64,000 bases of DNA, taken from the NCBI RefSeq assembly GCF_016808335.1, contig NC_053138.1:10657900-10721899 (forward strand). The letters run 5' to 3'. Source of the DNA: Panicum virgatum. Taxonomy: Eukaryota; Streptophyta; Magnoliopsida; Poales; Poaceae. The notes beneath the pieces are model-generated. The model did no database searches and was not told where the DNA came from. It saw only the letters and a list, made by a program, of their open reading frames with translations. A program made the translations under genes and the position numbers. Of this stretch, positions 2,826-57,965 are shown piece by piece. Every line of letters starts with the position of its first letter. Position 1 is the first letter of the stretch.

Positions 2826-3905
2826 GATTAACCTGAACTTTTAGGGTTAAATTTAACGTAGAACACAGGAGGAGGCTCAGATTACAGAGGAATGACAATA
2901 TAGGTTGGTAAAGGACAGTAAAATTTAGTCTAAATAATCTAAAGGCCGGGCCTTAAAAGTGTCAAGTTTTAATCCTATATAATTTTGAGTTAAAAAAATA
3001 AATGGTCATATTGAGCTGTGAAATTACTACTAGAATCATGGCCCATTACCACTCCTAAAAACTGTCCCGCACCCCCACCGGCTATAAAATATAATTTGCT
3101 TTAATTCTGAATCCATAGGCTACCAAGCTATATTGGTACAGAATAATAAGAAGATAGTGAATAGAAAAACATAGATAACAGTGGCATGTAAGCACAGAGG
3201 TTGGAGAGTGGCCGTGAGTGAAGAGAGAACAGAGGAGGTATAGATGACTGGCAACGAGAATGAGAAACTACCTCTGCTGCGCACTTGGAAATAGGAGGCG
3301 TCTGGAACTATTTCTCCAGCACCTAGTGCTATGCTTGCGTGTGCAGAAGAACTAATCCTTGCCATGTTGGACTGGTGGATCTCAGCTACAATGCTACAGC
3401 CTACATTATTGCTCCTCATGGATGCCTCCTGCACGTAGCAGGTTGAGAGTTGCCAAATGGCCTTGCTCATTTAATTTCCTCTATGTGACTGCTAGGTGGA
3501 ACTTAGTTTAATAGGTGAAAAATCAGCTCTTTTTCTTTGTCTCCAGTTGGTTTACTGAATCAAGTGCAAGGTTGGGTGTGATTTCTGAATAATTACCGTG
3601 TCTCTATGAAACAATCATCACACACTAAAGAACTTGATCATGTATTCACTCACCCACTCGGCTCAACCATTAAAATCACCGGAAGTTATCTCTAGCAATA
3701 TTTCAAGACATGAGTATGCCCACTGAAATGCATGAAATTAAGTATGTTGGCACACTTCTTTTAATTTAATTTGTTTCCATTCGTTTATGTAAAACACCGG
3801 ACCTCCCATTCATACAATCTGTGGTAAGACGCCTTTTGGTTCTCAAATAAAGGGGGGGGGGGGTGTTTGGTTCCTTTCATCTAAGAGATGTGCGAATTAA
3901 TAACA
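2826..3905 (+). ncRNA. Candidate 21-PHAS non-coding unit 1
   Basis: No protein-coding frame is recognisable. The stretch holds a miR2118-like target site at 3286-3307 and a 12-base G run at 3852-3863. Transcript ends cannot be read from sequence. The call rests on the site and on its place at the left end of a series of such sites. Confidence 0.4.
3286..3307 (+). promoter_or_regulatory. miR2118-like target site 1
   Basis: Matches 17 of 22 bases of the perfect complement of the common grass miR2118 form. The core is GGAGGCGTCTGGAA. The slice point would lie between 3297 and 3298. Confidence 0.55.
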
Positions 3906-4101
3906 CTAGTCTATCAACCCGTGCTCCCGCACGGGCTAGTGAGAGACATCTAATAATTATCTATCTCACGCTCTCTTTAACTAATTAAATACTCTAATTT
4001 AGTACTGTAAAGATACATGTATATCATTATGTGATTGTAATAAATGTGATAGATTTAGTTATTACTAATAATTTTTTGTCACTTTGCATCACACCACCAT
4101 G

Positions 4102-5079
4102 CAGCGGCGGAACCAGAAATTTTGAATAAGGGGGGCCGAGCAGATACTTTATACTATACGTGAGAAACATATCAAGATATATATACGTGTTACTAATATT
4201 TTAGATAGAGAAAATGCTTTACATATGTTCTGTTTGCACTTTACAACTTCGCAGACGTATTGCGAATTTGTATTCTCTTTCTTTCATAAAATAATATCAA
4301 ATGTCTTCGTTTTTTTAGTTTGACCATGTTTTCTGAAAAAAATTATAACATACTCCCTCCGTCCCACAAAGAGTGTAGTTTTAGGAAATTTCAGACACAT
4401 TACTTATCTAAACAAATGACTTTGTTACCCCTAATTATTTCTACCAATTATGATTGAAAACCACATTATTTATTTGGTTTTCTAGAAATGTAGGGTATTC
4501 TAGAGTTTGAAATTTGTAGGGCATTCTAGAGTTTGAAATTTTTACTCAAATGTAAGGCATTATGAGTTGAGAGTGGACCCAATCATCTTAATTGTGCATT
4601 ATTTTCGGATCTTTTCTAATAAAAAGACATGCATGCAGCCATGCAGGGGAGGTGCACGTGGGGGAGGTGCATGAGAAATGTCATGCTACTTTAATTATTA
4701 GCACATATTTAGTTAACCAAATAGAGTCCCAATACTTAATAATTAGGGTAATTAGGGGTAGGAGAGTCTTTTATATAGCCATAATTTATTCTAAAAACTC
4801 CAGAATGCCTTATATTTGGTGACGGAGGGAGTAATATTGGAGTCTTCGGGTTGGATTTGACTAGTATTTAGCTAGCTGCCTAGGTAGATGTGTATACGTG
4901 CACCGTTCAATATGTGTTGTTGGGTATGTTAAGGACGATAGCCGAGGAACTTAAGTACAAAGCATCGTTGCATTGATTGACCTTTGTGTTGGGCTTTAGA
5001 ATATAGGTGGGGGTTAAAAATTTTCACTGATTTTAGGGGGGGCCGTGGCCCCTGCTCGCCCCCCCTGGTTCCGCCGTTG
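4102..5079. mobile_element. Non-autonomous hAT element nested in the Helitron
   Basis: Terminal inverted repeats CAGCGGCGGAACCAG at 4102 and CTGGTTCCGCCGTTG ending at 5079 are flanked by perfect 8-bp duplications CCACCATG (4094-4101 and 5080-5087). Copy B of the host Helitron lacks it, giving the empty site. An 8-bp duplication with CAG-type ends is diagnostic of hAT. No transposase is seen. Confidence 0.88.
4353..4831. mobile_element. Stowaway-like MITE nested in the hAT element
   Basis: Ends CTCCCTCCGTCCCA and GACGGAGGGAG are inverted repeats, flanked by TA at 4351-4352 and 4832-4833. This is the Tc1/mariner Stowaway signature. The order of events is Helitron, then hAT, then Stowaway. Confidence 0.85.
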
Positions 5080-6041
5080 CCACCATGTATGTTTGATATA
5101 TATTTAATTGAACACTTGAGCTATGTGAACAATATAAAAATTGATATTCTATCTCTTCTCTTATACATGAATATATGGTGACATACACATTATGGTTAGT
5201 ATTTTTATATAAATAATAACATAAATGATATATTAATAATTATAGAAATAGTAATTTAGAATTTTATATTGATGCATTTTAAGATTTTATTATAATAATA
5301 TAATTTTGATTCAAATTTGGGTTTGTTTTAACTTTTTATTATGTTATCATTGGATAATATATATATGAAAATTTAGGGGATTGTTTGATATTATTTTATA
5401 ATAGCATAAGTGGGTAATTTACATGAAGATTAGGGGGTTACTTCAGATTATTTTTGTAATGGCAGAGGTGGGTAATTTAGATACATATATATTTAGGGGG
5501 TTATTTTAGTCTATTTTCATAATGGCAAATGTGGATAATTTATTAGAAAATGATTAGAGTTGCCGAATTGATGGCCGGATGTTTCTAATTTTTGTGAGAA
5601 TTTGTAGGATTTCTTTATTTGTTTAGACTGTCCACCTAGGATCATAGGTGGCTTTATCTGGAGGCTTCAAAAGAAGCCTTCAATTAGTAATAGTAAGATG
5701 GCTTATCAGGGTACACAGCGATAGGATGTCGTCTGCCAGATCACTAACTTCTATCATATGGGCAAGTTAAATTGATGTGGTTGAACTGCACGGACTCACC
5801 CACCAACTTCCCACTACCGCAGGCTTGAAGCAGCATGGCCAGCTTCTGTATATATGCAGTCGGCCTCCTTCTTCTTATTAGCTATCTATGTGTGTACCTT
5901 TTATTCTATATCTCTTTAGCTCTTAGTACATATATAGCGTGCAAGGCGGTAGAATGAAAGTAGAAACAACAAAGAACTTTGCTGAGAAGAAATGACAGTG
6001 ATGAGGAAATATGTGATTGCAACAAGCAGGATACAACACAT

Positions 6042-6063
6042 TAGGAATATGAGGCATCTGGAA
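6042..6063 (+). promoter_or_regulatory. miR2118-like target site 2
   Basis: Matches 19 of 22 bases, one of the two best sites. It contains GAGGCATCTGGAA, and the differences are at positions 8, 9 and 18 from the 5' end. The predicted phase would start at 6054. Confidence 0.7.
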
Positions 6064-7598: not shown

Positions 7599-7620
7599 GG
7601 GGAATAGGAGGCATCAAGGG
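7599..7620 (+). promoter_or_regulatory. miR2118-like target site 3
   Basis: Matches 16 of 22 bases. AATAGGAGGCATCA is intact but the 3' end (AAGGG) is poor, so binding at the miRNA seed would be weakened. On its own this could be chance; its place in the series supports it. Confidence 0.4.
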
Positions 7621-8414: not shown

Positions 8415-8436
8415 TGGGAGCAAGAGGCATCAGGGA
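8415..8436 (+). promoter_or_regulatory. miR2118-like target site 4
   Basis: Matches 16 of 22, with a perfect run AGGCATCAGG. It is orthologous in position to sites 7 (29266) and 8 (36002) in duplicated units, which makes it more credible than the count alone. Confidence 0.65.
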
Positions 8437-9254: not shown

Positions 9255-9276
9255 CGGAAATATGAGGGATCAGGAA
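9255..9276 (+). promoter_or_regulatory. miR2118-like target site 5, weak
   Basis: Matches 16 of 22; ATCAGGAA is intact but one core base differs (GAGGGATC). The paralogous block at 31.5 kb lacks about 39 bases that include this site. Confidence 0.35.
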
Positions 9277-9997: not shown

Positions 9998-10235
9998 TGT
10001 CGTGGTGCTGCAAACCACAGCCGGGTGGCGGAAGGCACCCGCCCTAGCCCAGAGGGTGTGTACTCGGGGGTTAGCTAGTCTTAGATCGATCTCCCTCAAG
10101 AACACGATGAACACCGCTAGATTTAGAGTGGTTCGGGCCGCCGGAGCGCAATACCCTACGTCCACTGTGTGTTGTATTGCCTTCCCACGAGAGTGTGAGA
10201 GTTGCGAGAACTTGTGTCTGTTTGGAGATGTCCTG
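9998..10235 (-). repeat. Tat element 3' LTR, first part (split by CRM insertion)
   Basis: Nearly identical to 26539-26775 of the other LTR. The LTR is interrupted after TCCTG at 10231-10235, which is the target duplication of the nested element, and resumes at 17830. Confidence 0.9.
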
Positions 10236-11162
10236 TGATGAGGACATCACTCCTACGGATACAAACGACACTCCTCAAGATGATATACAAGGTCCTATTA
10301 CTCGCGCACGTGCTCGACAATTGAACTTACAGGTGAGTTCGTTCCTAAGTAATGTTTATTGTGAATCTGAGAATAGATTGCTACCTAATGACTTAATTGT
10401 ACTTAGGAACAAAGGAGAGGACCAGCAAGGGTGTGGAGAAGGCCTTGGAGGCGTGGAGGACCAGCAAGGACGTCCGGATCAAGATGGAGGCCCAAACCGA
10501 TTCGACTTCGTTTCAGTTTCGGACTCCAGGAACAGGCCGCACTAAAACGGACGCCCAGGTTGCATACGGAGTCGGATTTGGGCGCACTTGATATGGATGG
10601 AAAGATAATTTCAAGACGCTTCCAATGGCTCTGGTTTCAGGCTCAAATTCATCCGGAGTCGACAGGAATCGTCTGTGGAAGTTGGCGTCCAGAATCTGTT
10701 CCGGTGCTGCGTCACTGTTTTTGGGCCGATGGCCCGTGTATCGTGTTGGAGCCCAATAGGGGCGCGTCCAGGGGGTTTTGCGCGACCTAAACCCTTATTA
10801 ATAGCCGCCGCCGCCATCGTGAGACTTGGGTTTTGCTTAGATTCATTCTGTCAAGAACAGTTGTCGCCGTTCATCGGTTTGTGAAACCCCAACTTGTGAG
10901 ATTAATCATTCATCTGCAGAGTCACTCTATTTGAGCTGCGTTTCTTTCGAGTTCTTGCTTGTGTTCTTCGTTGCGCTTGCAGGGATTAGCCTTCTTGGCG
11001 AGGTCAACCGGGTTGTGACACGGTTCATAACCAGAGGAGTTGTGGTGCTAAGATTGCTGGATTCGGGTCTTAGGATCTGAAGCCGGATCGGTGTGTTTCG
11101 CTCCGCCTACAACGAGAGTTATCCAGAACCTGACGGAAGATCGGGAACCCACGTCCCCATTA
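10236..11162 (+). repeat. CRM-like element 5' LTR
   Basis: Starts TGATGAGGACATCAC and ends GTCCCCATTA. It carries a copy of the pol C-terminal coding segment (to 10545), which is not translated as pol here because no pol frame enters it. Confidence 0.9.
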
Positions 11163-12263
11163 TTTGGTAATCAGAGACTCAGGTTTACTGTCAGGTTTTA
11201 CATCTATCTTAGTTCGAGTGTTTTTTTGTTGTCTTTCGTCCCATAGTCCACGAAAAAGCCAAAACAAAAAATTAGGGTTTAGTTTTCCCGTCCCATAGCC
11301 GTGTTTAGCCTTTTGCATAATTCTTTTTCAGAGTCCGTCGTGTTGAGTTTTGTGTCCTAGTTCATCGTCTTGTTGCTGGTTAGTTCGTGTTTTGGTCCAG
11401 TAGTGTTTTTCCATCCCCGCTGCCATCAGATCCACCATCGCTTACCACCCGATTTGGGTTTTGTTCTCCACAGAAACCCTAATCGGACCTCCGAACTTCA
11501 AACGGCCATAACTCTCGCATACGGATTCGGAATCAGGTGAAATTTAACTTTTCGGACAAGAGAAAAAAAATTTCGCATCCGTCTGTCCCCGGCCATGCCG
11601 GGTTGGGTGATTTCAGAATTGCAAAATTCGCATCAGAAAATTGTCTGTCGGAGCTCGGAAGTTTCTGCACGTTTTTTAAAGTTTTTGCAGAATTTCCATA
11701 GGCCACATCTTATAGCCGTTCGAGCTGAAATTTTGTGAGAAGCCTATTCTAGTGAGGCAGTTTGAGAAAAAAATATCAAAAAAATAAAAGAAAAAAAAAG
11801 AAAAGTTGATTTCTACTAGTGCCTCCACCTCACGACGAGCTCCGTTGAGCCCGATTCAGTGCTGTTTATCGTATCCATACTTGATCTTGATCCTGCTTGT
11901 TACCATTACTGTTCTAGGACACGTATAGGCCAGCAACTAGGACAAGTGTGCTTTTGGACCATTATTCAGCATTGCTATCTGATTTTGAATTGTGTTCCAC
12001 ATACTTATACTGTTGAGCCTCCCATAGCTACACATATTATCTTCAGATCATTACACCCAGAGGATCTTGCAATCTTGGTACCACTTCCTCACAGGTATCA
12101 TGAACCGGCCACCGGTTGTACCGTCCACTGCTCGTGTTGGTAAGAACCTTGTAAGGGCTTGGTAAGACGCTCTCTTTAGTAGTGACCTTGAGAGGCACCA
12201 CCACCTGAGTAGTCAGATTATTAGGGATAACCTTCACTGTTTGTTCCTGTTTTTGTGTCTACC
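11163..12263 (+). other. CRM-like element leader between 5' LTR and gag
   Basis: Holds the primer-binding site (TGGTAATCAGAGAC, from about 11165), an A-rich stretch near 11766-11806 and no conserved protein. It is probably the packaging and leader region. Confidence 0.75.
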
Positions 12264-13625
12264 ATGGCAGGTGATGATGGAAGTGGGGGTCATACTCCCA
12301 AGGACTTCAACGAGTGTGTTAGCCAAGAACAGCTGGAGGATGCCAAGAGAGAGATGCACGAGGTCGTCACCGAGGCGATCATAGGCCTCAAGCTTGGTGA
12401 AATCATATCCACGGTTACTGACAGGATCGATGCGTTGGAGACTCGTCAACAGCACAATCAAGATGAGGACATGGTGTATGATGACCAAGGTAATATAGAT
12501 GAAGCGGCCACACGGGAAGCACGGCTACGCCGTCGTCTTCGCCGCAACACACAAGGTATGGGTGGTACTCACAACCACAACCACAATCACCAGCAAGGTA
12601 ATCAGAATCGTGTACCCGATGATCCTTATGCTAAGGTTAAGTTTACAATACCTTCCTTTTCGGGATATTATGATGCTGACGGGTACCTTGATTGGGAGAT
12701 GACAGTAGAGCAGAAATTTAGTGCACACCTTGTACCTGAGCAACATAGAGTTAGACAAGCCACTAGTGAGTTTAAAGATTTTGCTATCGTTTGGTGGACC
12801 GGTCTAATTGCTGAGGATGCTGCACCTACTACTTGGAATGATCTTAAGTCTGCTATGCGTGATAGATTTGTTCCCCCATCGTACCATAGAGATTTGCGTA
12901 AGAAATTGATGCGCTTAGAACAGGGAGATAAAACCGTGCAGGATTATTATGGTGAACTTCAAAAGGGTTTGATGCGTTGTGCCATAGTTGAGGGAACTGA
13001 GGATGCTATATGTAGATTTTACTCGGGCTTGAGGCGTGACATTCAGGACATTGTTGATTACAAAGAATTTCACACTGTCAACCAGTTGTTTCAGTTTGCC
13101 ATGCTTGCAGAGAAGGAATTGCAGGGACGTGATTTGCAGAGCAGGAGCAAGGCCACCTACACCCCACGCTCGGCGCCATCTTCGGGGCTGACCAAGCCTG
13201 CCTCTTTTCGATCGCCCCCACCTGCGAGCAACAAGCGACCAGCAGCTTCGGAAGCTGCCACAACGCCAAAACCATCTCCTGCGCGTACTTCCGACTCAGG
13301 TAAAAAGTTTTTGCAGGAGCCAGCCAAGAGTTCGTCCTCCGTGTCCTCGACGGGAGGCACGACCGTTCAGTGCCACCACTGCCATGGATTTGGACATGTG
13401 CGGAAGGATTGCCCAAGTCAGCGGGCATACATTGCTACCGAAGACGGCTACATTAGTGCCTCCGACATTGAAGATGATGATGAAGAAGAACCAGAAGAGG
13501 CTGCGGAGGCCGGGCATGTTCTGGGTAGCGAGAACACAGCAGCCTTCAGGAGCATCATTGTGAAGCGAGTGCTCAGCGTAAAGGCACAACAACCAGAGAA
13601 GTTTCAGCGCCATAATTTGTTCTAG
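12264..13625 (+). CDS. CRM-like Gag, ended by an in-frame stop
   Basis: The ATG at 12264 sits in a good start context (ACCATGGC). An in-frame GTG nine bases upstream is not needed. The protein has an acidic N-terminal part, a basic RLRRRLRR patch, the retrotransposon gag domain (W in DWEMTVEQKF to about the ELQGRD segment), a serine-rich linker and a CCHC zinc knuckle (CHHCHGFGHVRKDC) near residues 370-385. Gag coats the element RNA and forms the particle. In related elements the frame continues straight into protease. Here TAG at 13623-13625 ends it, and the same frame is open again right after, so a single base change is the likely cause. Confidence 0.85.
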   Translation: MAGDDGSGGHTPKDFNECVSQEQLEDAKREMHEVVTEAIIGLKLGEIISTVTDRIDALETRQQHNQDEDMVYDDQGNIDEAATREARLRRRLRRNTQGMGGTHNHNHNHQQGNQNRVPDDPYAKVKFTIPSFSGYYDADGYLDWEMTVEQKFSAHLVPEQHRVRQATSEFKDFAIVWWTGLIAEDAAPTTWNDLKSAMRDRFVPPSYHRDLRKKLMRLEQGDKTVQDYYGELQKGLMRCAIVEGTEDAICRFYSGLRRDIQDIVDYKEFHTVNQLFQFAMLAEKELQGRDLQSRSKATYTPRSAPSSGLTKPASFRSPPPASNKRPAASEAATTPKPSPARTSDSGKKFLQEPAKSSSSVSSTGGTTVQCHHCHGFGHVRKDCPSQRAYIATEDGYISASDIEDDDEEEPEEAAEAGHVLGSENTAAFRSIIVKRVLSVKAQQPEKFQRHNLF

Positions 13626-14687
13626 ATTTTCTTCGTCATCAACAATCGCCGAGCGCGTGTCATCATTGATGGAGGTAGTTGCAATAATTTGGTGAGTTCA
13701 GATTTGGTCAAGAAGCTTGGCTTGGCCACACGTCCACACTCCCATCCATATTATATTCAGTGGTTTAATGATGCGGGGAAAGCTAAGGTAACACAATCTT
13801 GCAGAGTTTCTTTTTCCATTGGTTCATATGCTGATTCCGTAGATTGTGATGTTGTACCTATGGAGGCGTGTTCGCTTTTGTTGGGTCGACCTTGGGAATT
13901 TGATAATGATGCTTTACACCATGGTAGAAGTAATACTTACACCTTCATGCATAAGGGAAAGAAAATTACTTTACTTCCTATGACCCCTGCTGAAATTGTA
14001 CAAGCTGAAAAAGAACGAGATGCTACTTTGCATGAAACTAAATCTGAAAATCAGCAAGTTGCTAATTCTGTTTACCCACCTAAAAATGATAAGTCTGCAC
14101 CTATTTCCAAGACTGATGGGATTAAATTGAAGGGTGGAGTTTTACTTGCTAGAAAATGCGACCTTGCTGAAATCTCTGATGATGATGTTTGTTACACTTT
14201 GGTGTGCAAACAAACACTGTTTTCCCTTGATAATGATGTTAGCTCGATACCTCCTGTTGTCGCTAACCTTTTGCAGGAGTTTGAGGACATTTTTCCAGCT
14301 GACATACCTCCCGGGCTGCCACCTATGAGGGGAATTGAGCATCTGATCGACTTGATTCCGGGAGCAACTTTGCCTAACCGAGCTGCTTATCGAACCAACC
14401 CCGACGAGACTAAGGAAATTCAGCGCCAAGTCCAAGAGCTTTTGGACCGCGGGTATGTACGTAAAAGCCTTAGTCCTTGTGCCGTTCCTGTGCTTTTGGT
14501 TCCTAAGAAAGATGGTACTTGGCGTATGTGTGTTGATTGTAGAGCCATAAATAACATTACCATTCGATATCGCCATCCTATTCCTAGACTTGATGATATG
14601 CTTGATGAGTTGTGTGGCGCTATAATTTTTACAAAGATTGACTTGCGTAGTGGTTACCACCAAATTAGAATGAAACTTGGAGATTAA
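13626..14687 (+). pseudogene. CRM-like protease and N-terminal reverse transcriptase segment
   Basis: This segment is in frame with gag after its stop. The aspartic protease shows the active-site motif IIDGGSCNNL just after the stop (DGGS instead of the common DSG) and the later LLLGRPW segment. The first RT motifs follow: VPKKDGTWRMCVDCRAIN, then IPRLDDMLDELCGAIIFTKID and SGYHQIRM. A TAA at 14685-14687 ends the frame within RT, and it reopens at once in the same frame. With stops on both sides this part would only be made by readthrough. The residues around both stops look otherwise intact. Confidence 0.85.
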
Positions 14688-17207
14688 TGGAAAACAGCTT
14701 TTAAGACTAAATTCGGCTTGTATGAGTGGTTAGTAATGCCTTTTGGTTTGACTAATGCACCAAGTACTTTCATGCGATTAATGAATGAAGTTTTAAGAGC
14801 TTTTATTGGACGATTTGTGGTGGTTTACTTTGATGATATCTTGATTTACAGCAAGTCTTTGGATGAACATATGGATCACTTACGTGCTGTTTTTAATGCT
14901 TTACGTGATGCACGTTTATTTGGTAACCTTGACAAGTGCACCTTTTGCACGGATCGAGTCTCTTTTCTTGGCTATGTTGTTACTCCACAGGGAATTGAGG
15001 TGGATGAGACTAAAATTGACGCCATAAAGAGTTGGCCGGTTCCCCAGACTGTCACACAGGTGAGGAGTTTTCTTGGTCTTGCAGGATTTTATCGCCGCTT
15101 TGTCAAAGATTTCAGCACCATTGCTGCGCCACTGCATGAGTTGACAAAGAAGGGTGTGGTGTTCCGTCGGGGAAAGGCACATGAGGAGTCCTTTTGCACT
15201 TTGAAGGACAAGCTTACACATGCTCCTTTGCTGCAACTTCCAAATTTCGGTAAGACTTTTGAGCTTGAATGCGATGCTAGTGGAGTTGGCATTGGAGGTG
15301 TCTTGATGCAAGAAGGTAAACCCATTGCTTACTTTAGCGAGAAATTGCATGGCCCTGTTTTGAATTACTCTACGTATGATAAAGAATTGTATGCACTTGT
15401 ACGTTCTTTAGAGACGTGGCGTCATTATTTATGGCCTAAGGAATTTGTTATTCACTCCGATCATGAATCGCTTAAGTATCTTCGTTCTCAAAATAATCTG
15501 AATCGTAGACATGCTAAGTGGGTTGAATTCATTGAATTTTTTCCTTATATTATCAAACACAAGAAAGGGAAGGATAATGTGATTGCCGATGCTTTGTCTA
15601 GACGTTATACTATGCTGTCCCAACTTGATTGTCGGATTTTTGGGCTTGAATCGATTAAAGAACAATATGCGCTAGACCCTGATTTTAATGAGGTGTTGCT
15701 GAATTGTAAAGAGGGACGTACATGGAACAAGTTTGTGATAAATGATGGATTTGTGTTTAGAGCTAACCGCATATGCATTCCAGTTGGTTCTGTTCGTCTT
15801 TTGTTGATGCAGGAAGCGCATGGTGGAGGTTTGATGGGACATTTTGGTGCGAAGAAGACAGAGGATGTTCTGGCCACACACTTCTTTTGGCCAAGGATGA
15901 GGAGAGACGTTGAGCGGTTCGTGGCTCGCTGTAATACATGTCAAAAAGCTAAGTCGCGCTTGAACCCACATGGTTTGTATATGCCTCTTCCTATTCCTTC
16001 GGTTCCGTGGGCGGATATTTCTATGGACTTTGTTTTGGGATTGCCTCGGACGAAGAGGGGGAGTGATAGCGTTTTTGTTGTGGTCGATAGTTTTTCCAAG
16101 ATGGCACATTTTATACCTTGTCATAAAACAGATGATGCCATTCATATTGCTAACCTCTTTTTCAAAGAGATTGTTCGCTTGCACGGTATGCCTTCTACTA
16201 TTGTTTCAGATCGTGATGCAAAATTCTTGAGTCATTTTTGGCGCGCGCTATGGAACAAATTGGGGACAAAGTTGCTGTTTTCTACAACATGTCATCCCCA
16301 AACTGATGGACAAACAGAGGTGGTGAATAGAACATTGTCTACGATGCTGCGAGCAATATTAAAGCAAAATTTGAAGATGTGGGAAGAGTGTTTGCCGCAT
16401 GTGGAGTTTGCATATAATCGGGCGGAACACTCCACCACCAAGGTAAGTCCTTTTCAGGTAGTGTATGGTTTTAACCCTCGTGCTCCCATTGATCTTTTGC
16501 CTCTACCTACTACTGAGCGTGTACATAGTGATGCTAAAGAGCGTGCTGATTTTATTTTAAAATTACATGCTTCAACCAAAGAGAACATTGAAAAGATGAC
16601 TGAGAAATATAGAATTGCTGGTAGTCGCGGTAGAAAGGAAGTTAAACTTGAACCGGGTGATTTAGTTTGGTTGCATTTGAGAAAAGAAAGATTTCCAGAT
16701 TTGAGAAAGTCTAAATTGATGCCACGTGCTGCTGGACCATATAAAATTTTGGAAAAGATTAATGATAACGCATATAAACTTGAGTTGCCCCCGGAGTTTG
16801 GGGTTAGTCCCACTTTTAACATTTCAGATTTGAAGCCATATTTTGGAGAAGAAGATGAGCTTGAGTCGAGGACGACTCCAATTCAAGAGGGGGAGGATGA
16901 TGAGGACATCACTCCTACGGATACAAACGACACTCCTCAAGATGATATACAAGGTCCTATTACTCGCGCACGTGCTCGACAATTGAACTTACAGGTGAGT
17001 TCGTTCCTAAGTAATGTTTATTGTGAATCTGAGAATAGATTGCTACCTAATGACTTAATTGTACTTAGGAACAAAGGAGAGGACCAGCAAGGGTGTGGAG
17101 AAGGCCTTGGAGGCGTGGAGGACCAGCAAGGACGTCCGGATCAAGATGGAGGCCCAAACCGATTCGACTTCGTTTCAGTTTCGGACTCCAGGAACAGGCC
17201 GCACTAA
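14688..17207 (+). pseudogene. CRM-like reverse transcriptase, RNase H and integrase segment
   Basis: Open for about 840 codons in the same frame as gag. It shows the RT catalytic YFDD (about residue 37 counted from 14718), the thumb, RNase H ([11 protein letters not shown], then [12 protein letters not shown]), and an integrase with an H..H..C..C zinc-binding region (NTCQKAK end), catalytic segments starting WADISMDF and IVSDRDAKF, and a glutamate in [12 protein letters not shown]. After a GPY-type module ([17 protein letters not shown]) the tail [15 protein letters not shown] continues into the 3' LTR at 16898, adding about 103 codons with [11 protein letters not shown]. There is no classical chromodomain; the tail is the kind that CRM elements carry. 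The TAA at 14685 separates it from the RT N-terminus. Confidence 0.85.
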
Positions 17208-17824: not shown

Positions 17825-17829
17825 TCCTG

Positions 17830-20952: not shown

Positions 20953-21016
20953 GTACGGCGTCCTGCTGCTAGCTCCGTGGCGCATGACGCGATGCTAACT
21001 GGCGTGTCATTTTTAG
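20953..21016 (+). other. Predicted 64-base intron in the accessory gene
   Basis: Donor CAG|GTACGG and acceptor TTTTTAG|ACTC. Removing it joins two different reading frames into one open frame across the junction. Confidence 0.5.
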
Positions 21017-21029
21017 ACTCTGCAGTGCA

Positions 21030-24190: not shown

Positions 24191-24194
24191 TGCT

Positions 24195-26480: not shown

Positions 26481-26519
26481 GGGGACGAAGAAGAGATGAA
26501 CTGCGACCAGCTAAAGCTC

Positions 26520-45276: not shown

Positions 45277-45298
45277 TGGGAGTGAGAGACATCCGGAA
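45277..45298 (+). promoter_or_regulatory. miR2118-like target site 13, cut off by a Copia insertion
   Basis: 17 of 22 bases match, with GACATCCGGAA at the 3' side. The Copia element starts 15 bases beyond it, at 45313, so the natural downstream siRNA region now lies after 52675. Confidence 0.55.
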
Positions 45299-45312: not shown

Positions 45313-45785
45313 TGTAGGGAAACGGGTAGGCTACGCTAGCATCACTACCGCATATACCCAAGATACTTGCGAGTAGAAGATCATAGATCGTTACCACTAG
45401 ACGCGCAGCGCAGCGGAAGAAGTCGCGCGTCGATGTAGAGGAAGTAGTCGATCACGTCCCACGAACCGAGCTCCTCGTACTTGATCCCAACAGCCGATCA
45501 GCGCAGCAGTCGCAGCAGCGCCTCCACGGAGTCCACACGTACGGGGATGAAACGCCGGGCGTCGGTGTGCTAGCACCGCACGCACGGCATGGGTGGCGGC
45601 CGAGAGAGAGGGAGGGGCGGCGGCTCACCGGGGTCTCGCCCCCAGCCCCTCCCTCGTATATATAGAGCGTACTAATGGGCTTCTATCTCATAGGCTCATT
45701 AGTAACCCTAATCCCTCTTGGATCAATATCCTCTTGGGCCTTTAAACCGTATTGTGATGATGGGCTCTTGGGCATATCACCAACA
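45313..45785 (-). repeat. Copia 3' LTR
   Basis: 473 bp. Lacks a 16-bp segment (TAGGAGGTGGCGCGGC) present in the 5' LTR. Confidence 0.9.
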
Positions 45786-46737
45786 ATCTCCCACTTGCAC
45801 TAGAGACAATCATACATGCAAGCTTTTCAACATTCCAAACCCCTTAAGTGTGTGACCCGTTAGGTTCATGTGTAGGTGGTCGTGATCAGAAATCATTTCC
45901 GAATCACAAGTCAATAGCGGCACCTAGCAGGGTATAGTGACTCACAAATACACATAAAGATCATATCGGCCGAACCTTAGATATACTCATACACCGATCC
46001 CTTTGCCACATGATACCAGTCAAGCTCAAAGCGAGATGCGTGCCACCTTTGTGATAGCTCGACCATTCTCTCGATCTAATAGTGGATTCCATTCATAACT
46101 AACCTTTAGTCATCATGATTAACTCTTTAATCACTTTGGCATGGCCATGCACTTTCAAATCCAACTATCTCGAGGGGCCTAGAGATATCTCTCATGTTAT
46201 CTAGGAGGGGCAAATTCCATTTTGATCCGCTCACATCCCATTCCATGTTTCATGACACACATGTAAGCTACTTTTGTAACTACCCAGTCACGGAGTAGCG
46301 TTTAGCAGCCCCAAGATGCACCACTACATACAGTGAGAAACAATGACGATCTCAGGTCTAAGGATCTAGTAGGTATAACACTCAAGAACAACTGATGGCA
46401 CATACAAAATAACAATCCCAACATTGTCTTGGAGTGGGTCAATCCAACACCATGTTCACCAACATGTGTCCACATCATTAATCCGATATCTCCATATCCA
46501 TGATCCGTGAAACATGATCATCAATTAATGCATGTGCTAGTCTCAACGTCGTTGTTGTCCCACACAACGACATAAACTAGGGATAATTTAGAATCATATC
46601 ATTGTCAACAAAGAGTTTCACGAACAAGTCACATACTTGATAATCAATGTAAAAAATAATCATCCATGGAACAAATAACAATTATTTATCATTACATAAA
46701 CATACTCGTGACACAAAATCTCCCACGCACATTAGAA
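45786..46737 (-). other. Copia 3' internal non-coding region
   Basis: Between the polyprotein stop and the 3' LTR. The purine tract abuts the LTR at 45786. No further coding sequence. Confidence 0.7.
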
Positions 46738-49700
46738 TCACTGATGTAAGTATCTAATACCCATAGATCTCATGTGCGCCTCATGCTTTGGTTGTGGGAG
46801 AGGCTTTGTCAACGGATCAGCAACGTTTGAATCCGTGTGCACCTTGCAAACCTTCACATCACCTCTCTCAACAAAGTTACGGATGAGGTGATACTTCCGC
46901 AGTATATGTCTGGACTTTTTAGTTGTTCTAGGCTCCTTTGCTAGTGCAACGGCACCACTATTATCACAATAGAGGTCCACTGGACTGGACGCACTAGGAA
47001 CAACACCCAAGTCAGAAACAAACTTTCTGATCCAAACAGCTTCTTTTGCAGCTTCGGAAGCTGCAATATACTCGGCCTCTGTCGTCGAATCAGCCACCGT
47101 ATCTTGCTTGAAACTTTTCCAGCTCACTGCCCCACCATTGAGGCAGAAAACAAAACCGGATTGTGATTTGGAGTCATCTTTGTCTGTTTGAAAACTAGCA
47201 TCGGTGTAACCCTTTACAAGGAGCTCATCTTCGCCTCCAAATATTAGGAACATATCCTTAGTTCTTCTCAAGTACTTAAGGATACTCTTTACAATTGTCC
47301 AGTGAGCTTCACCGAAATCTGACTGATACCTGCTCGTAACACTTAGAGCAAAGGAAACATCTGGGCGCGTGCAAAGCATAGCATACATGATCGACCCTAT
47401 GGCTGAAGCATAAGGAATCGTACTCATCCTCTTTTGCTCATCAGGTGTCGTAGCACACTGACTCTTGCTTAGAGTAATGTCATGTGACATTGGCAAGAAA
47501 CCTTTCTTGGAATCTTGCATGTTGAACCGATTCAATATCTTGTCAATGTACGTGTCTTGGCTTAATCCAATTAGCCTTTTTGATCTATCTCTATAGATCC
47601 TAATACCCAGAATATAAGCCGCCTCTCCTAAATCCTTCATCAAAAAACTCTTTTTTAATGAGGTTTTAACGGCTTCAAGCATTAGAATATTATTTCCGAT
47701 CAGTAATATGTCATCTACATATAGGACCAGAAACACAAGTGCGCTGCCACTAGCCTTTTTGTAAACACAAGGCTCATCTTCATTCTTGATGAAGCCAAAC
47801 CCTTTGACTACTTCATCAAAACGAATATTCCAACTCCGAGATGTTTGCTTGAATCCATAGATGGACCTCTGAAGTTTACATATCTTCCCAGCATTTTTAG
47901 GATTGACAAAACCTTCAGGCTGTGTCATATACACATCCTCACTTAGATGTCCATTAAGGAAAGCGGTTTTGACATCCATTTGCCATATCTCATAGTCATA
48001 ATATGCGGCAATTGCTAGGAGAATCCGAACAGACTTTAGCATTGCGACGGGTGAAAAGGTTTCCTCATAGTCAACACCTTGAATTTGTCGGAAACCTTTC
48101 GCCACCAATCGTGCCTTATAGATGTGAACATTTCCATCCATGTCTAATTTTTTCTTAAAAATCCACTTACAGTCGACAGGTCTCACACTGTCAATTTGAT
48201 CGACCAAGTTCCAAACTTGATTATCCTGCATGGATTTTAACTCGGATTCCATGGCTTCAAGCCATTTGTCGGAGTCGGGTCCCATCATTGCTTCTTTGTA
48301 GGTCAAGGGCTCATCATTTTCCATCAATAATACGTGGCGCTCCTCCGTAATCAGGAGGTTGAGCTTGTTAGTAGCGCGACGTGCCCTTATAGACCTTCGT
48401 GGGGCTGGTGCCTCAACTACGGGTTGTGCAACATCTTGCACATCTCGTGGATCTTCAGTGGGTGCTGAAACAGTTTCGGGTGTTTCCTGAATTTCTTCAA
48501 GTTGCACCTTGCTCCCACTAAATCCTTTTGAGAGAAACTCCTTTTCTAAGAAAACACCATTGCGAGCGACAAACATTTTACCTTCCGCCTTATTCTAAAA
48601 ATAATATCCTTTGGTTTCCCTAGGATACCCCACAAAGAAGCATTTGTCTGACTTTGGAGTGAGCTTATCTGACATCAAACGTTTGACATAAGCCTCACAC
48701 CCCCAAACTTTGAGAAAAGATAATCCGGGACACTTCCCAGTCCATATCTCATATGGTGTTTTCTCAACAGACTTACTTGGAACCCTATTCAGTGTGAACG
48801 CAGCAGTTTCAAGAGCATAACCCCAAAATGACAATAGAAGATCGGCTTGGCTCATCATGGACCTAACCATGTCCAACAAGATTCGGTTCCTCCGTTCGGA
48901 TACCCCATTCCATTGAGGCGTTCCGGGCGGAGTTAGCTGCGGAATAATTCCACATTACTTCAAATGATCACCAAATTCAAGGCTCAAATATTCTCCTCCA
49001 CGATCAGATCACAGAAATTTAATTGTCTTGCCTAATTGATTTTGTACTTCATTCTGAAATTCTTTGAACTTTTCAAATGATTCAGACTTGTGCCTCATTA
49101 AGTAGATATAGCCATATCTACTAAAGTCACCAGTGAAAGTAATGAAGTACTGAAAACCACCTCTGGCTATTGAGCTCATTGGTCCACATACATCGGTATG
49201 TACAAGTCCCAACAAGTCACTCGCCCTCTCACTATGACCAGTGAAAGGCGCTTTGGTCATCTTTGCAAGCAAACAAGACTCACATGTGTCAAATGATTCA
49301 AAATCAAATGAGCTTAACAATCCATCTTTATGGAGTTGTTCAATGCGCTTCTCATTTATATGACCTAAGCGACAATGCCAAATAAAAGTGGGATTCAAAT
49401 CATTTGGTCTAAGCCTCTTAGTATTAATGTTACAGACAGATTTATCATCAAGATCAAGAACATATAATCCATTCACCAATGGACAATGAGCATAAAAAAT
49501 ACCATTGCAAAAAATAGAACAACATTTGTTCTCTATTACAATCTTAAAATCATTAACTTCTTCCAAACATGAAGAAGAAATAATGTTTTTGCTCAAAGCA
49601 GGAAGGCAATAACAATTATTTAATTCCAAAACTAATCCGGAGGGTAGAGACAAGTGGTAGGTGCCGACCGCCAACACCGCAACCTTTGCGCCATGGCCGA

Positions 49701-50719
49701 CACGAACGTCCAACTCGCCTCTTGCAAATCTTCTAGTCTCACTTAGACCCTACAACAATTTGCAAGTGTGAATCATCAATCCAGTATCAAATACCCATGA
49801 TTCACTGGAAGATAATGCAATATTAATTTCTATAACATTTATACCTGAAGTGGAAGTCTCACTTCCCTTCTTCTTCTTCTTTTCTTCCAAGTACTTCTTG
49901 CAGTTCCTAGACCAATGTCCCTTTTCATGACAGTGAAAGCATTCATCCTCAGAAGTAGGGCCAGATTTGGCCTTAGGTGCTGGCTTTAGCTTAGAGCCCG
50001 AGGACTCACCACTGGAACTATTTTCCTTGCCTTTACCTTTGGGATTAGGAGGCGTCCAATGCTTCCTCCTTTTGTTCCCCTTCTGAATCATCATCACATG
50101 ATTGGGATTCTTCTTAATGCTCTCCTCTGCTGTCTTTAGCATTCCATGCAACTCACTCAATGTTTTATCCAAGCCATTCATCTGAAAGTTCATGATAAAA
50201 GGCTCATAACTCGCCGGGAGCGACTGGAGAATAACATCAGTAGCCAAGTCTTGGTGAAGTTCAAAACCAAGTCTGTCCAAAATCTCAATGTAACCAATCA
50301 TTTTGATCACATGAGGACTGACTGGGTTACCTTCTGGCAGCTTGCACGCAAACAAAGGACTTTGAGATATTGAACCTCTCAGTCCTGGCTTGGTTCTGAA
50401 ACATCCCACGCAGCCCCTCGATCATGGTGTGAGCATCCACATGCTCATACTGCTTCTGCAGATCAGGGGACATGGTGGCGAGCATCAGACAGCTGACATC
50501 AAGTGAGTCATTGCAGTGCTTCTCATAAGCTCTGCGATCAGCAGCAGTTGCATTGTCAGGGAGATCATTAGGATATGGCTGCTCAAGAACATACTCCTTT
50601 TTCTCTTGCCTGAGAACAATTCTCAGGTTGCGGTACCAATCAATAAAGTTTGTTCCATTCAAATTTTCTTTCTCAAGAATAGAACGCAAATTGAAAGCGG
50701 AATTGGTACTGGCAGACAT
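46738..50719 (-). pseudogene. Copia Gag-Pol polyprotein, broken
   Basis: Order on the minus strand: Gag (50719-49750) with a CCHC knuckle CFHCHEKGHWSRNC, protease region (VFDTGLMIHTCK; a Leu follows DTG where Ser is usual), integrase with H..H..C..C (CRLGH to CESCLL) and core starting HTDVCGP, then RT (LVLYVDDILLIG) and RNase H (GYTDASFQTD, TEAEYIAASEA), ending TGA 46738-46740. Breaks: a one-base frameshift near 50360, TAG near 49750, TGA and TAA at about 49006 and 48955, and TAG near 48595. The RT-RNase H part (46738-48576) is still open for 612 codons. It would normally copy and insert the element; this copy cannot. Confidence 0.88.
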
Positions 50720-52179
50720 GATCTACAACATTAAAGTAAAGCAAGATTTCAGCACTAAGTTTATGTAAAGACTTTCATTAACTGATTTAATAAAAGACAA
50801 CCTACTATATCAAAGTCATCTTCCCTCTAATGACATATAGTGGTTCAAGATCCATAATCACTAAAATCCTAGTGAGCTTTAGCATCACGGCTAGAAAAGT
50901 AGTGATACAGGTAAGCAACAAATTGCTAATCACATCTCTATGCGACTCTTGTTTGTTGGGTGGCATCCAAAGCCCCGGCCCCAACCCTATGCCTTAAAGC
51001 CCAAAAATGTTTTAATAGCTTTGCTGAGTAAATCAATACTATGCTTGTGAATGTCCGACATCCACCCTATACAAAAGTGATAGCTGAGGGTACTCTACTT
51101 TGGTAAACCTACCACACAACGATCAAAATTTATAGGTGCAGCTATTGGTAAAAGGCATCAAAAACTCAACCTTTTCTGAGGGAAGCTATTCTATCATGAT
51201 TAAAGCATCCACCATATGTAAAATCATGAAAGAATAGTATGACAGGAAAATAAACATCACAGGCATATAATTATATTATATTGTGAATAGTATGGCCTTT
51301 TGCATCACAATGGGCTCCATCGCCATGGCTCCAAGGTGACCTCCATTGCCATCCGTCCTGTCTTGTGGTGATCATCATCGCCATCATGATTGAAATCTCC
51401 ATGAAAAGATACTAAGCTACTACATCTAATAGCTAGTGAAATAATTACATGAGGATTCAAACATCACAAGTCGACACGCAGGTCGTTATACAATAATGGT
51501 GCAACCTCAACCCAGTTGTGTTAACTTGCGACACGCAGGCCGCACAAATCATCACATACATCATCACATGACATTGAGGCCATACCATTCACATCACACC
51601 CTGCAAAAACAAGTTAGGCGTACGACGTGTTCTACCAAAGTAGCGCTTAGGAAGCCGCTATAGCGAGAAAGCAACGACGGTCAGCGGGCGGGAGGTCGAG
51701 GGGGAGCCGCCCCCCGCGGGTCTCAGGGCAGCGCCCTGAAAACCTCACAGAATTACACAGATCGCATCTATGGAATCCCTATGAAAATCTCATCAGAGTG
51801 ATCGCATCACCTCAAATCCGAGCCATTCATAATGCCTCAATTTTCACTAGGTCAATCACATTGACCGTCAAACTTTGCACTTGAGAAGACTGCATCTACA
51901 CATAACCTCGATCTGTTGGTTCAATCTGCTGACTATGTACACAGTTAGTCCCGATGGTGATTCCAGCCGGTAGGGACATGTCGTATGCATAACAGAAAAA
52001 GAACACAAACTAATCTTTTGTCACATGCCGCACAATCAACTCGCTCCAGTTTTAACCCCTTATGACCAATTGATCTAATCAAACCGTGCAAAAGTAATAG
52101 ATCTAATCTACTACAACAACATATCACCTATATGCAAAAGATCCAGACCAAAGACTACGCAAGATGGCTCTGATACCAC
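50720..52179 (-). other. Copia leader between 5' LTR and gag
   Basis: Long untranslated leader with the primer site at its start (about 52161-52179). No conserved protein. Confidence 0.65.
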
Positions 52180-52669
52180 TGTAGGGAAACGGGTAGGCTA
52201 CGCTAGCATCACTACCGCATATACCCAAGATACTTGCGAGTAGAAGATCATAGATCGTTACCATTAGACGCGCAGCGCAGCGGAAGAAGTCGCGCGTCGA
52301 TGTAGAGGAAATAGTCGATCACGTCCCACGAACCGAGCTCCTCGTACTTGATCCCAGCAGCCGATCAGCGCAGCAATCGCAGCAGCGCCTCCACGGAGTC
52401 CACACGTACGGGGATGAAACGCCGGGTGTCGGTGTGCTAGCACCGCACGCACGGCATGGGCGGCGGCCGAGAGAGAGGGAGGGGCGGCGGCTAGGAGGTG
52501 GCGCGGCTCACCGGGGTCTCGCCCCCTAGCCCCTCCCTCGTATATATAGAGCGTACTAATGGGCTTCTATCTCATAGGCCCATTAGTAACCATAATCCCT
52601 CTTGGATCAATATCATTTTGGGCCTTTAAACCGTATTGTGATGATGGGCTCTTGGGCATATCACCAACA
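52180..52669 (-). repeat. Copia 5' LTR
   Basis: 490 bp, followed by the TAAAT duplication at 52670-52674. Confidence 0.9.
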
Positions 52670-53983: not shown

Positions 53984-54005
53984 TTGGAGTTGGAGGCATC
54001 CGGAA
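53984..54005 (+). promoter_or_regulatory. miR2118-like target site 14
   Basis: 18 of 22 bases match, with GGAGGCATCCGGAA intact apart from one base. Confidence 0.65.
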
Positions 54006-55185
54006 CGGTCCCAGAACCGGAAGTTATCACCGGCCGAAGAAACACTAAACAGCTAGGCGGAGCTCGACTTGCACTTCCCTATCTGACCAGAGCTGTCGAT
54101 TAGCAACTGCAATGTGGGTGGCTGCACGGCGACCCGTCCTGCAGGGCACCCATCTGCCAGCAAGCCTATTTTAACAAGTTTATCCCTGTAATTATGTTAC
54201 CACTGTTAGCAGCTAGATTCATCTCGCTCCCACTGCGGCAAGCAATGTTTCCCTTATTAAATTACAAATAAATAGATGATCGTCCCCTAACTACTGGTCA
54301 TATCTCATTACTGCTTGATCCATCAGCCAAGTAATGCATGTGCATATATGTAGCCCAACTGAAAGAGAGACCATGCATAAAGCTACCGCATCGAAGCATG
54401 ATGATGCAATGTTTGCATTTGTTAGGAATAATGTGAGGAATCTGGAACCACGTCCTTTCATGGTGCGAAGATCTCTTGAGTTTGTGGAGGGCAACAAGAA
54501 CAGGAAGCTTAAGCACGCTGAAGCAGATGGTGATGGCAAGTTCTCTGAAACTGAAGGTCCTGAAACTGATGGATTCAGAATAAAAATCTGACAAGTAAAG
54601 CAGCAGCGGGCCTGGATCGGGAGCCCCCAACGCATGCTTTACTATGGGCCGGAATAGGTGAACTAGCTGTAGGCCCAATAGTACCTAACCTGCATACTTA
54701 GGGAGCCCCCAACGCATGCTACTATGGACTCAATGCAGTCTAGGGCTGCTTTGAGACTAACGAGAGGAAGAAGACGCCCGGCGTGAGGCCGTGAGCGGCG
54801 CTACCGTGAAGCCGCGGCCGATCGAGGACAGGAGATCGGAATCCATTTTTTGCAAATGCACTTCTGGATTGGCTCCTGATTATTTATCGTGATCTGAATA
54901 TTTTTAAAATGTCCTCCATTTATTTATATATAGCCTCCTAATTTGGGTCGCTATTATTAATCGCGATCCAAATATTTGCAATTTACCCTCTATGTTTTTA
55001 CAATATATAACCCGACTCTCTTATTTGGATCGCGGTTACTAGTCATGATCCGAATATTTGCAAATTTCTTCATGCATGTTTCATATAGCTCCTAGGTCGT
55101 CTTCTCCTTCCGGGCTCCGGCTCCCACCCGCCCAGCGCTGCCTGCAGCCGCCACCACCGCCGTCCTCCGCCCCTGCCGGAAGTGC
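54006..55185 (+). ncRNA. Candidate 21-PHAS non-coding units 14 and 15
   Basis: No protein recognised; a small frame at 54334-54591 overlaps site 15. Two sites lie 442 bases apart on the same strand (53984 and 54426). A diverged pair of GATCGCGA-type AT-rich segments at 54880-55060 may be an old MITE. Confidence 0.4.
54426..54447 (+). promoter_or_regulatory. miR2118-like target site 15, weak
   Basis: 16 of 22 bases match; the 5' part is poor but GTGAGGAATCTGGAA is close to the core. Confidence 0.38.
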
Positions 55186-55189
55186 ATCT

Positions 55190-56526: not shown

Positions 56527-56681
56527 GGGCGTCCGTAATGGTAACAGCTTTTCTCTCATAGATTCTTGAAATACGTGAAATAGATTAGTCATTTGCCCAT
56601 CGCTAGTGACTACTCTATCTTCTATTTTTCTATTGTCACATCAGATCTAGCTAGCTAAATAGCTAGTCATTGCGGACGCCC
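56527..56681. mobile_element. Tourist-like MITE (PIF/Harbinger), 155 bp
   Basis: Ends GGGCGTCCGTAATG and CATTGCGGACGCCC are inverted repeats, flanked by TTA at 56524-56526 and 56682-56684. Confidence 0.85.
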
Positions 56682-57090
56682 TTAGTTTGTAATATTCACA
56701 TTATTCTTTATGAAATATGCATATTATTAGAAATTTTTAACTCTTTATAATTACCGTCATAAATTAAAAATAGTTGACCTAAAGAGCTCATAGTCTCTCG
56801 TTCGCCCTAGGGCCTCTCAAAACATAGAGCCGGCCAGGCAAGAAGCTTTGTATGCGCAGCAATCCGTACTGCGATGGAGGCGGAGAACTCGGGCACGTCC
56901 GCTGGGCGCGGAGAAGAAAAAAAAAAGCATCGAGCGGACGAGCACGGGGCGTCCCTTCCGTCGTTGCCAGTCGCTTCCGGCGAGCGGTCAGCGGCGGCCG
57001 GCCGCCCCACTGCCTGGGTTACGAGTGGGCTGAGATAATTGGGCCGTCTCTCAGCCCACCCGTTTCGCACTTGGTTAGCTCCAGTTTAAC

Positions 57091-57106
57091 ATAATCTCAA
57101 AAAAAA
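57091..57106 (+). mobile_element. 16-bp poly(A) micro-retroposon
   Basis: ATAATCTC plus an A run between perfect 14-bp repeats AGCTCCAGTTTAAC (57077-57090 and 57107-57120). A diverged copy of the same event lies at 58720-58757; module copy 3 lacks it. Confidence 0.65.
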
Positions 57107-57185
57107 AGCTCCAGTTTAACAACCGTCCATTTTCGATTGGACGTCCAGGATGATCTCGACCCCGGACAGTAAATGGATTACCGTC

Positions 57186-57965
57186 TACCCCCGAGTAGTT
57201 GCACAAACTCTCACCGGCAACCATATATGAGCTATCTCCCTCGGTTCCAAAATACAATTTTGTTTAGTTTAGTCTAAATAAATATTTTAAAAAAACGATC
57301 AAGTTTATAGAGAAAATACTGTGTGAGATGATATTTTGTGATGACATAACATTGTATCTGATGATATTATATTTGTGATGAATGTTGCCTCCCATCTGTG
57401 ATGAATGTGTTGTAGTAATGTCCGCGCAAACCATGTGAAATCATATTTGTCCAGTCTGTTTGACTGTAGTAATACTGTTTGTACCATTTGGCTGGTTGAC
57501 AACCGAATGTGCAAATGGGTATCAAGGTCTATTTTTCACCTACCATCCACTTGTACAAATAAATAGCCATTTCTACATATACGGAAACCCATGGTCGACT
57601 TGGAATCTACATATAGAAAGGGTTCTAAACCGGCGGTACACATTGGTATGCTGGTTCTCTGCTAGTTCTATATATATCTCCTTAGTGTTAGCTATCCACA
57701 TGAAAACTACTAGGTACACCAAATTAACACATAGAGTTTCTCAAAAGAGTACAAAAAGCCCGAGAGAGAAATAGCAAGCAAAGGCAATGGGAAACTACAC
57801 CCACGAGTGCCATAGTAAAGGTACTTACACAAGCAGTCAGTGTGCTGGGAATGAGAGTCGTCTGGAACTATGTCGAATGCAGGGGTGCGTGTACATGTAC
57901 CAGATCATCACATAGTAGAACAAGTAGAACGAGGGGTGTGTCGCGTGGTCCGCCCATGCTTTGTA
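57186..57965 (+). ncRNA. Candidate 21-PHAS non-coding unit 16
   Basis: Paralogue of 40020-42000 without the MULE. The site at 57846 follows CACAAGCAGTCAGTGTGCTG, exactly as in unit 10. Confidence 0.5.
57846..57867 (+). promoter_or_regulatory. miR2118-like target site 16
   Basis: 17 of 22 bases match; shares the GAGTC core change with site 10. Confidence 0.6.

Follow-up and report, generated by a model that had tools for sequence, protein, structure and literature searches.

The closest described counterparts of the DNA analysed here are the 21-PHAS loci of grasses, which operate through miR2118, RDR6, DCL4 and MEL1/AGO5c. Some 2000 loci of this kind are attributed to rice, and male sterility is seen in pathway mutants (PMC7562718). 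Rice anther phasiRNAs carry a 5'-C and, via the 2-nt overhang, a G at position 19 (PMC7305157). Even among grasses the sequences of PHAS loci diverge, which leaves the target of selection in them unclear (PMC7305157). A published table (PMC4457045) lists 898 loci for foxtail millet and only 14 for switchgrass, a Panicum, in a column that appears to count non-coding loci. The switchgrass number counts against the presence of a cluster in the present DNA; its difference from the foxtail millet number may be explained by the tissue sampled. Two related systems are the miR2275-triggered 24-PHAS loci, which belong to the same kind of pathway, and the miR482/miR2118-NLR phasiRNA loci of dicots and gymnosperms.

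The window, meaning the whole stretch of 64,000 nucleotides that was analysed, resembles the grass 21-PHAS loci in having many apparently non-coding loci with complements of the 22-nt miR2118 within tens of kilobases, clustered as in rice. Sixteen miR2118-like sites had been proposed, 14 on the plus strand and two on the minus strand, and all of them were refound in place when the complements of four grass miR2118 forms were scored over 22 positions (Table 1). The lower end of the match range originally given (16/22) is borne out, and the upper end moves from 19/22 to 20/22 on rescoring. On both strands of the 64-kb window, 17 matches were observed at 16/22 or better, 13 at 17/22 or better and 11 at 18/22 or better, compared with means of 1.7, 0.2 and 0.025, respectively, in 40 dinucleotide-preserving shuffles of 2-kb blocks. 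The earlier expectation of about half a site at 16/22 or better was roughly threefold too low, perhaps because four miR2118 forms are scored here, and its conclusion that the sites exceed chance holds. The 17th match, at 5987 (+) with 16/22, has no GAGGCATC core and appears fortuitous; only four of the 16 sites carry GAGGCATC.GGAA in its exact form. A weight matrix covering positions −4 to +34, which was built from the same sites, gives them scores of 25-43 bits and detects no further convincing site in the window, the next-best score being 11.0 at 50040, inside the copia element, while the reversed sequence tops out at 9.9. The motif extends past the 22 nt, with C at +23, +26, and +29; this was considered as a sign of P-loop descent and is left unclaimed, its in-frame match being poor by eye. 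The spacing between sites 8415 and 9255 is 840 nt, or 40 × 21, and no claim is made on multiples of 21.

Table 1. miR2118-like sites and other features of the window. Match is out of 22 positions; register rank is the position of the miR2118 cleavage register among 21 registers at each locus.
Feature	Position	Strand	Family	Match	Register rank	Remarks
miR2118-like site	3286..3307	+	a	17	10	TATAAAA at 3083
miR2118-like site	6042..6063	+	b	19	2	TATATATG at 5849
miR2118-like site	7599..7620	+	c	16	16	mismatches opposite miRNA 5' end, possibly weak
miR2118-like site	8415..8436	+	c	17	1	paralogue of 29266 and 36002
miR2118-like site	9255..9276	+	d	16	4	TATATATG at 9082; site-less paralogue at 31262-31731
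miR2118-like site	28049..28070	-	e	20	1	best match; TATATATG from ~28200 (minus)
miR2118-like site	29266..29287	+	c	18	7	body broken ~82 bp downstream by ~1.1 kb relative to 8415
miR2118-like site	36002..36023	+	c	18	2	
miR2118-like site	39202..39223	-	e	19	1	paralogue of 28049; TATATATG from ~39362 (minus)
miR2118-like site	41893..41914	+	e	18	4	paralogue of 57846
miR2118-like site	42269..42290	+	f	18	2	overlaps 16/22 match to second miR2275 form (42268)
miR2118-like site	43285..43306	+	g	18	16	
miR2118-like site	45277..45298	+	j	18	17 (copia excised)	copia LTR starts 15 bp past last base; TATATAT at 45118
miR2118-like site	53984..54005	+	h	18	12	TATATAT at 53803
miR2118-like site	54426..54447	+	i	16	2	
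miR2118-like site	57846..57867	+	e	18	3	TATATAT at 57669
Site-less paralogue of 9255 locus	31262..31731	+				75.7% identity; 40 nt missing (= 9238-9277, whole miR2118 site); no TATATATG box
LTR retrotransposon	9998..27591	.				TSD CATTT; nested Gypsy in one LTR; lies between two parts of cluster
Nested Gypsy element	10236-17825					TSD TCCTG; 100% LTR identity over 928 bp
Copia retrotransposon	45313..52669	-				LTRs 94.5% alike; TSD TAAAT; inserted directly after site 45277

The original prediction that none of the sites lies in a recognisable protein stands: no ORF of at least 150 aa covers any of them, and the longest stop-free stretches across the sites reach 55-150 aa. Neither NB-ARC nor any other Pfam family was detected at E ≤ 1 in P-loop-frame translations from −150 to +600 at 12 of the 16 loci, a test of one frame that left out 29266, 39202, 45277, and 57846. 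The putative precursors are non-coding as judged from these reading frames. The same data bear on the idea that the sites are remnants of NLR genes, pseudogene pieces matching P-loop codons rather than PHAS genes. The window shares with the miR482/miR2118-NLR loci the trigger family and a P-loop-like site; translated in one frame, the sites come close to G-I-G/R-G-I, as does the NLR P-loop. Disease-resistance genes are miR2118 targets in dicots (PMC7305157). However, the flanks of the 12 loci examined are free of Pfam domains, in which they differ from the NLR loci, and the stop-free stretches over the sites are short, making an NLR origin very improbable.

The sites could also be the miRNA* arms of hairpins in a cluster of MIR2118 genes. 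The star arm of miR2118 would resemble the complement as well. Such genes do form clusters in wheat (PMC7057497). Nevertheless, the site arms pair at only 6-18 of 22 positions, inside the range of 0-20 for 300 random 22-mers from the window, and Rfam gives no match at the gathering threshold; neither MIR2118 nor MIR482, families that Rfam may lack, is among the names of its nine matches up to E = 5. Hairpin genes are an extremely improbable source of the sites. Other triggers were rejected as well. A 24-PHAS assignment finds no complement of the main form of miR2275 at 16 or more matches in the window and no signal at period 24 (p = 0.29-0.30); a second form has three matches at 16/22, counted without a shuffle baseline, one of which overlaps site 42269. 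The best matches to miR390 and miR482 are 15/21 and 16/22, judged to be at chance level without a shuffle baseline.

The DNA downstream of the sites, read in the miR2118 cleavage register, is enriched in C at phase position 1 and in G at position 19, as measured in rice anther phasiRNAs (PMC7305157), with the difference that the bias is here read from genomic DNA alone. Given the 2-nt overhang, 19-G corresponds to a 5'-C on the opposite strand. The register tests were performed on 15 sites; 45277 was left out because the copia element lies directly downstream, and was re-entered with this element excised. Since the first phasiRNA overlaps the conserved site, most tests omitted it. The prediction of C and 19-G preceded the first look at the data but was recorded afterwards, and terms for T and A depletion were added after that look. 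With C+G alone, the miR2118 register ranks first of 21 with a family-level p of 0.0019. The score C-T+G-A, in which the T/A terms are post hoc, gives a family-level p of 1.4e-4 over cycles 2-11, which becomes 0.0014 when counting starts at cycle 3, and the best period among 15-30 is 21 from either starting cycle. For the 15 sites the miR2118 register (S0) is first of 21 at all seven depths, it is also first in all nine leave-one-family-out runs, and 400 sets of random pseudo-sites attain a maximum of 34.8, compared with 55.4 observed. When the two multi-member families are each reduced to a single member, all 16 possible choices give p = 0.0002-0.012 from cycle 2. Among individual loci, 10 of 15 place the register in the top four of 21, and the same test applied upstream is flat (p = 0.15-0.27). 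The composition at positions 1 and 19 expected of 5'-C/19-G phasiRNAs, which is typical of 21-PHAS loci and does not define them, is present in the DNA.

The register signal is modest. Periodic variance does not reach significance in an omnibus test (p = 0.13), and a test of dyad symmetry gives a weak result (p = 0.03, or 0.12 from cycle 3 onward). C+G alone gives p = 0.011 from cycle 3, one member per family gives p = 0.0045-0.066 across four sets from the same cycle, and p is 0.08 from cycle 4 at depth 15. A period of 19 has p = 0.0013 with cycle 2 and p = 0.29 once this cycle is dropped, and the register ranks 10 or worse at four of the 15 loci. The bias is not purely 5'-C, since at position 1 the enrichment of G (33%) equals that of C (32%) and a contrast of G+C against A+T at both duplex ends performs equally well (p = 0.0003). 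The depletion of T at position 1 differs from the U-rich anther-wall class of rice. The signal might be a statistical accident, or an artefact produced by common descent, at sites that are PHAS sites nonetheless: the omnibus variance and the weakening from cycle 3 favour this, the paralogues have common sequence, and the tests were run with several depths, skips, and weightings. The family-level result for C+G alone, the one-member choices from cycle 2, the unchanged first rank whichever family is omitted, and the flat upstream control argue in the other direction, and we regard an accident or artefact as rather unlikely, if of appreciable weight.

By flank similarity, the 16 sites fall into 10 families in our own grouping, with 7599 assigned to family c on a single weak 66-nt match; the sites are not all independent. 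In six of six paralogue comparisons, which share members and are non-independent, the site is 91-95% alike, above every 50-bp bin within 300 bp. A strict TATA pattern, chosen post hoc, lies in the −210 to −120 band at eight of the 16 loci and in six of the 10 families (p = 3e-4), at distances of 130-203 bp from the site; the best bands of its antisense and downstream controls hold three and two. A looser pattern, tried first, gave p = 0.085, and its antisense control reached the same seven loci.

The cluster appears to have been enlarged by local duplication, with retrotransposons and one indel breaking some of the copies. The 40-nt stretch missing at 31262-31731 has ATCC at both ends, and this paralogue is a probable dead or never-triggered copy. 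Some of the 16 sites are probably weak or dead, namely 45277 with its copia LTR, 29266 with an insert at about +82, and 7599 with its mismatches to the miRNA 5' end. These defects, together with the presence of three LTR retrotransposons in the window, would suit a cluster that is real by descent and mostly no longer transcribed or cut. Such general decay is improbable in view of the high register ranks at two thirds of the 15 loci, the conservation of the sites above their flanks, and the TATA boxes at half of the 16.

The 21-PHAS cluster put forward in the original prediction is the best reading of sites far in excess of chance, non-coding flanks, absence of hairpins, a grass host, and a register bias found only downstream. 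The window very probably holds a cluster of 21-PHAS loci of a Panicum-lineage grass, made up of putative Pol II units that are non-coding and each contain one miR2118 site, and this cluster is probably functional in part. According to the known pathway, the 22-nt miR2118 would slice each transcript between positions 12 and 13 of the site in pre-meiotic anthers, RDR6 would turn the 3' piece double-stranded, and DCL4 would dice it into 21-nt duplexes starting at the cut end. At the predicted duplex ends the downstream DNA is biased over about the first 11 cycles, toward C or G in position 1 and toward G in position 19, with few T or A, and many of the phasiRNAs would be suited to a MEL1/AGO5c-type Argonaute that prefers 5'-C.

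The cluster is a further example of the known grass 21-PHAS kind, and the visibility of its rhythm in DNA alone is unusual; in the literature searched, no report of a phase register in genomic DNA was found. Tentatively, the genomic DNA may hold an evolved 21-nt phase imprint, in which, for about ten cycles, both duplex ends have come to favour C/G over U/A, a possibility that we put forward with reserve. Such an imprint would imply that selection acts on individual phasiRNAs, either through their sorting into an Argonaute (MEL1/AGO5c with 5'-C, germ-cell type) or through their duplex ends, despite fast-diverging bodies. Natural comparisons are offered by 31262-31731, with neither trigger nor TATA box, against the 9255 locus, where both are present, and by the 45277 locus, cut by the copia element right behind its trigger. 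If the phase-locked end bias is true, every phasiRNA would have at least its end nucleotides maintained, which the grass genomes already sequenced would suffice to examine, and PHAS loci and their register could be readable from DNA without small-RNA data.

All 16 miR2118-like sites claimed by the original prediction are present; scored against the complements of four miR2118 forms, each matches its nearest one at 16-20 of 22 positions. At thresholds of at least 16, 17, and 18 of 22 matches, dinucleotide shuffles lead one to expect 1.7, 0.2, and 0.025 sites, compared to 17 (one of them chance-like), 13, and 11 found, respectively. A weight matrix derived from the 16 sites themselves scores them at 25-43 bits; the runner-up place reaches 11.0 bits and the reversed-sequence maximum is 9.9. 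Site positions 5, 10-12, 17, and 20 are invariant under family weighting, and C is conserved across families at +23, +26, and +29 from the site start, outside the miRNA-paired 22 nt.

Other origins of such sites were also considered. As for MIR2118 hairpins, the hairpin pairing of the sites lies inside the range of 300 random 22-mers; a search of Rfam gave nothing at the gathering threshold. Remnants of NLR genes were likewise rejected, as flanks translated in the P-loop frame, covering 12 of the 16 loci, had no Pfam match at E<=1. No site for the main form of miR2275 was found in the window, and a second form matches at 16/22 in three places, one of which overlaps site 42269 (sites are named by start coordinate). 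The window very probably holds a miR2118-triggered 21-PHAS cluster. Grass clusters of such loci are already well known, and rice superclusters were reportedly described by Johnson in 2009. The window itself is plant DNA containing LTR retrotransposons. Excerpts of the literature give 2173 loci yielding 21-nt phasiRNAs in rice (PMC7562718), and 898 in foxtail millet versus 14 in switchgrass in the presumed non-coding column of a table (PMC4457045).

With miR2118 expected to cut just after site position 12 and DCL4 to dice onward from the cut end, phasiRNAs of the top strand would begin at position 13+21k and those of the bottom strand at duplex position 19. According to partial texts, rice anther phasiRNAs carry 5'-C, hence also 19-G (PMC7305157), and 5'-C phasiRNAs are bound by MEL1 (PMC5219027, PMC10247740). 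The expectation of C at position 1 together with G at position 19 preceded the first composition table but was noted only afterwards, and the T and A penalties of the combined score (C-T at position 1 plus G-A at position 19) were added after that table. Register tests used 15 sites, 45277 being omitted because of a copia element, with offsets permuted per family (9 families). Over cycles 2-11, which leave out the first phasiRNA, the composition at position 1 is C 32%, G 33%, A 20%, and T 15%, and that at position 19 is G 35%, C 26%, T 23%, and A 16%, against a background of 24-26% each. By the combined score, the predicted register ranks first of 21 at all seven depths; it also ranks first in 9/9 leave-one-family-out sets. 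Permutation gives p=1.4e-4 for the combined score; C+G alone gives p=0.0019, or 0.0033 with the copia-excised 45277 added. The best period among 15-30 is 21, whether starting at cycle 2 or 3, and 400 sets of 15 random pseudo-sites reach at most 34.8, versus 55.4 for the real sites. Upstream of the sites, the predicted register is flat (p 0.15-0.27). Ten of the 15 single loci place it within the top 4 registers; it ranks 7 at 29266, 10 at 3286, 12 at 53984, and 16 at both 7599 and 43285.

From cycle 3 onward, the combined score gives p=0.0014 and C+G alone p=0.011; from cycle 4, p is 0.007 over 8 cycles and 0.08 over 15, and the per-cycle score decays beyond about cycle 11. Reducing both multi-member families to a single member each gives p 0.0002-0.012 from cycle 2 across all 16 possible choices, and 0.0045-0.066 from cycle 3 in four such sets. 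Periodic variance in an omnibus test falls short of significance (p=0.13). Dyad symmetry gives a weak p=0.03, rising to 0.12 when counted from cycle 3, and the copia-excised 45277 alone ranks 17/21. A period of 19 scored in one setting (p=0.0013), a signal that disappeared once cycle 2 was dropped. Moreover, scoring G+C versus A+T at both ends performs equally well (p=0.0003), so the bias could stem from duplex ends rather than 5'-C loading. We regard a 21-nt phase imprint in the genomic DNA as a tentative reading, somewhat short of probable; confidence in it and in the overall assignment is lowered by three points: G too is in excess at position 1, the tests weaken in later cycles, and few loci are counted in switchgrass. 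Separately, a post hoc and unforeseen excess of A was seen at phase position 3 on both strands together (z 3.9).

Window self-comparison led us to sort the 16 loci into 10 families. Loci 8415, 29266, and 36002 are paralogues, 7599 being added on one weak 66-nt match, as are the pairs 28049/39202 and 41893/57846; these last four loci have an island of 40 nt surrounding the site in common. In six overlapping comparisons, site identity among paralogues (91-95%) exceeds that of every 50-bp bin within 300 bp. Similarity extends about 120-600 bp upstream; downstream, it ends at about +164 in 28049/39202 and at +103 to +115 in 41893/57846, continues to about +400 in 8415/36002, and in 29266 breaks off at about +82, resuming after an interruption of some 1.1 kb. 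The paralogue of 9255 has TATGC and a 4-nt gap in place of TATATATGA, and lacks 40 nt containing the entire miR2118 site, with ATCC at both ends; without this segment and the TATATATG box, it is a natural triggerless comparison to 9255. The repeat pair, an unclassified repeat or an old duplication, is adjoined by 3905-4100 and 43728-43920.

Features of the window other than the miR2118-like sites
Feature	Position	Strand	Details
Repeat pair	5080-5699 and 43914-44560		86%; downstream of sites 3286 and 43285
LTR element, 17.6 kb	9998-27591		TSD CATTT; between 9255 and 28049
Gypsy retrotransposon	10236-17825		LTRs identical over 928 bp; TSD TCCTG
Imperfect palindrome, MITE-like	28382-28567		80% inverted repeat
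Paralogue of the 9255 locus	31262-31731		75.7% identity
GRAS gene (scarecrow-like)	62210-63931	minus	Pfam GRAS E=7e-91

A strict TATA motif (TATATAT or TATAAAA) lies 130-203 bp upstream of 8/16 sites in 6/10 families (p=3e-4 versus random places; best-band controls, 3 loci antisense and 2 downstream), which would fit transcript starts some 100-170 nt upstream of the site. An initial test of the less strict pattern TATAWA, against a different null, yielded p=0.085; the antisense control of that pattern reached the same 7 loci. The copia element starts 15 bp beyond the last base of site 45277 (target-site duplication TAAAT). The Gypsy element, nested inside an LTR of the older 17.6-kb element, is a very recent insertion given its identical LTRs. 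The palindrome has a below-threshold Rfam match to MIR2646 (49.8 bits; gathering 245). Among the best 120 of 916 matches to the GRAS gene, the closest named protein by identity is Panicum miliaceum scarecrow-like 33 (86%), and one further protein, without a name, is 89% alike; by bits, a Paspalum protein comes slightly higher, though with 63% identity, since it contains two copies of GRAS. The GRAS gene thus points to a grass of the Panicum lineage as host.

Our literature search, over partial texts, found no earlier report of a phase register read from genomic DNA. The register signal, if replicated, would argue for selection on phasiRNA ends. The T depletion at position 1 predicts that the cluster would feed the 5'-C germ-cell Argonaute, not the U-rich anther-wall class, a contrast drawn in excerpts of two papers (PMC7305157, PMC10247740).
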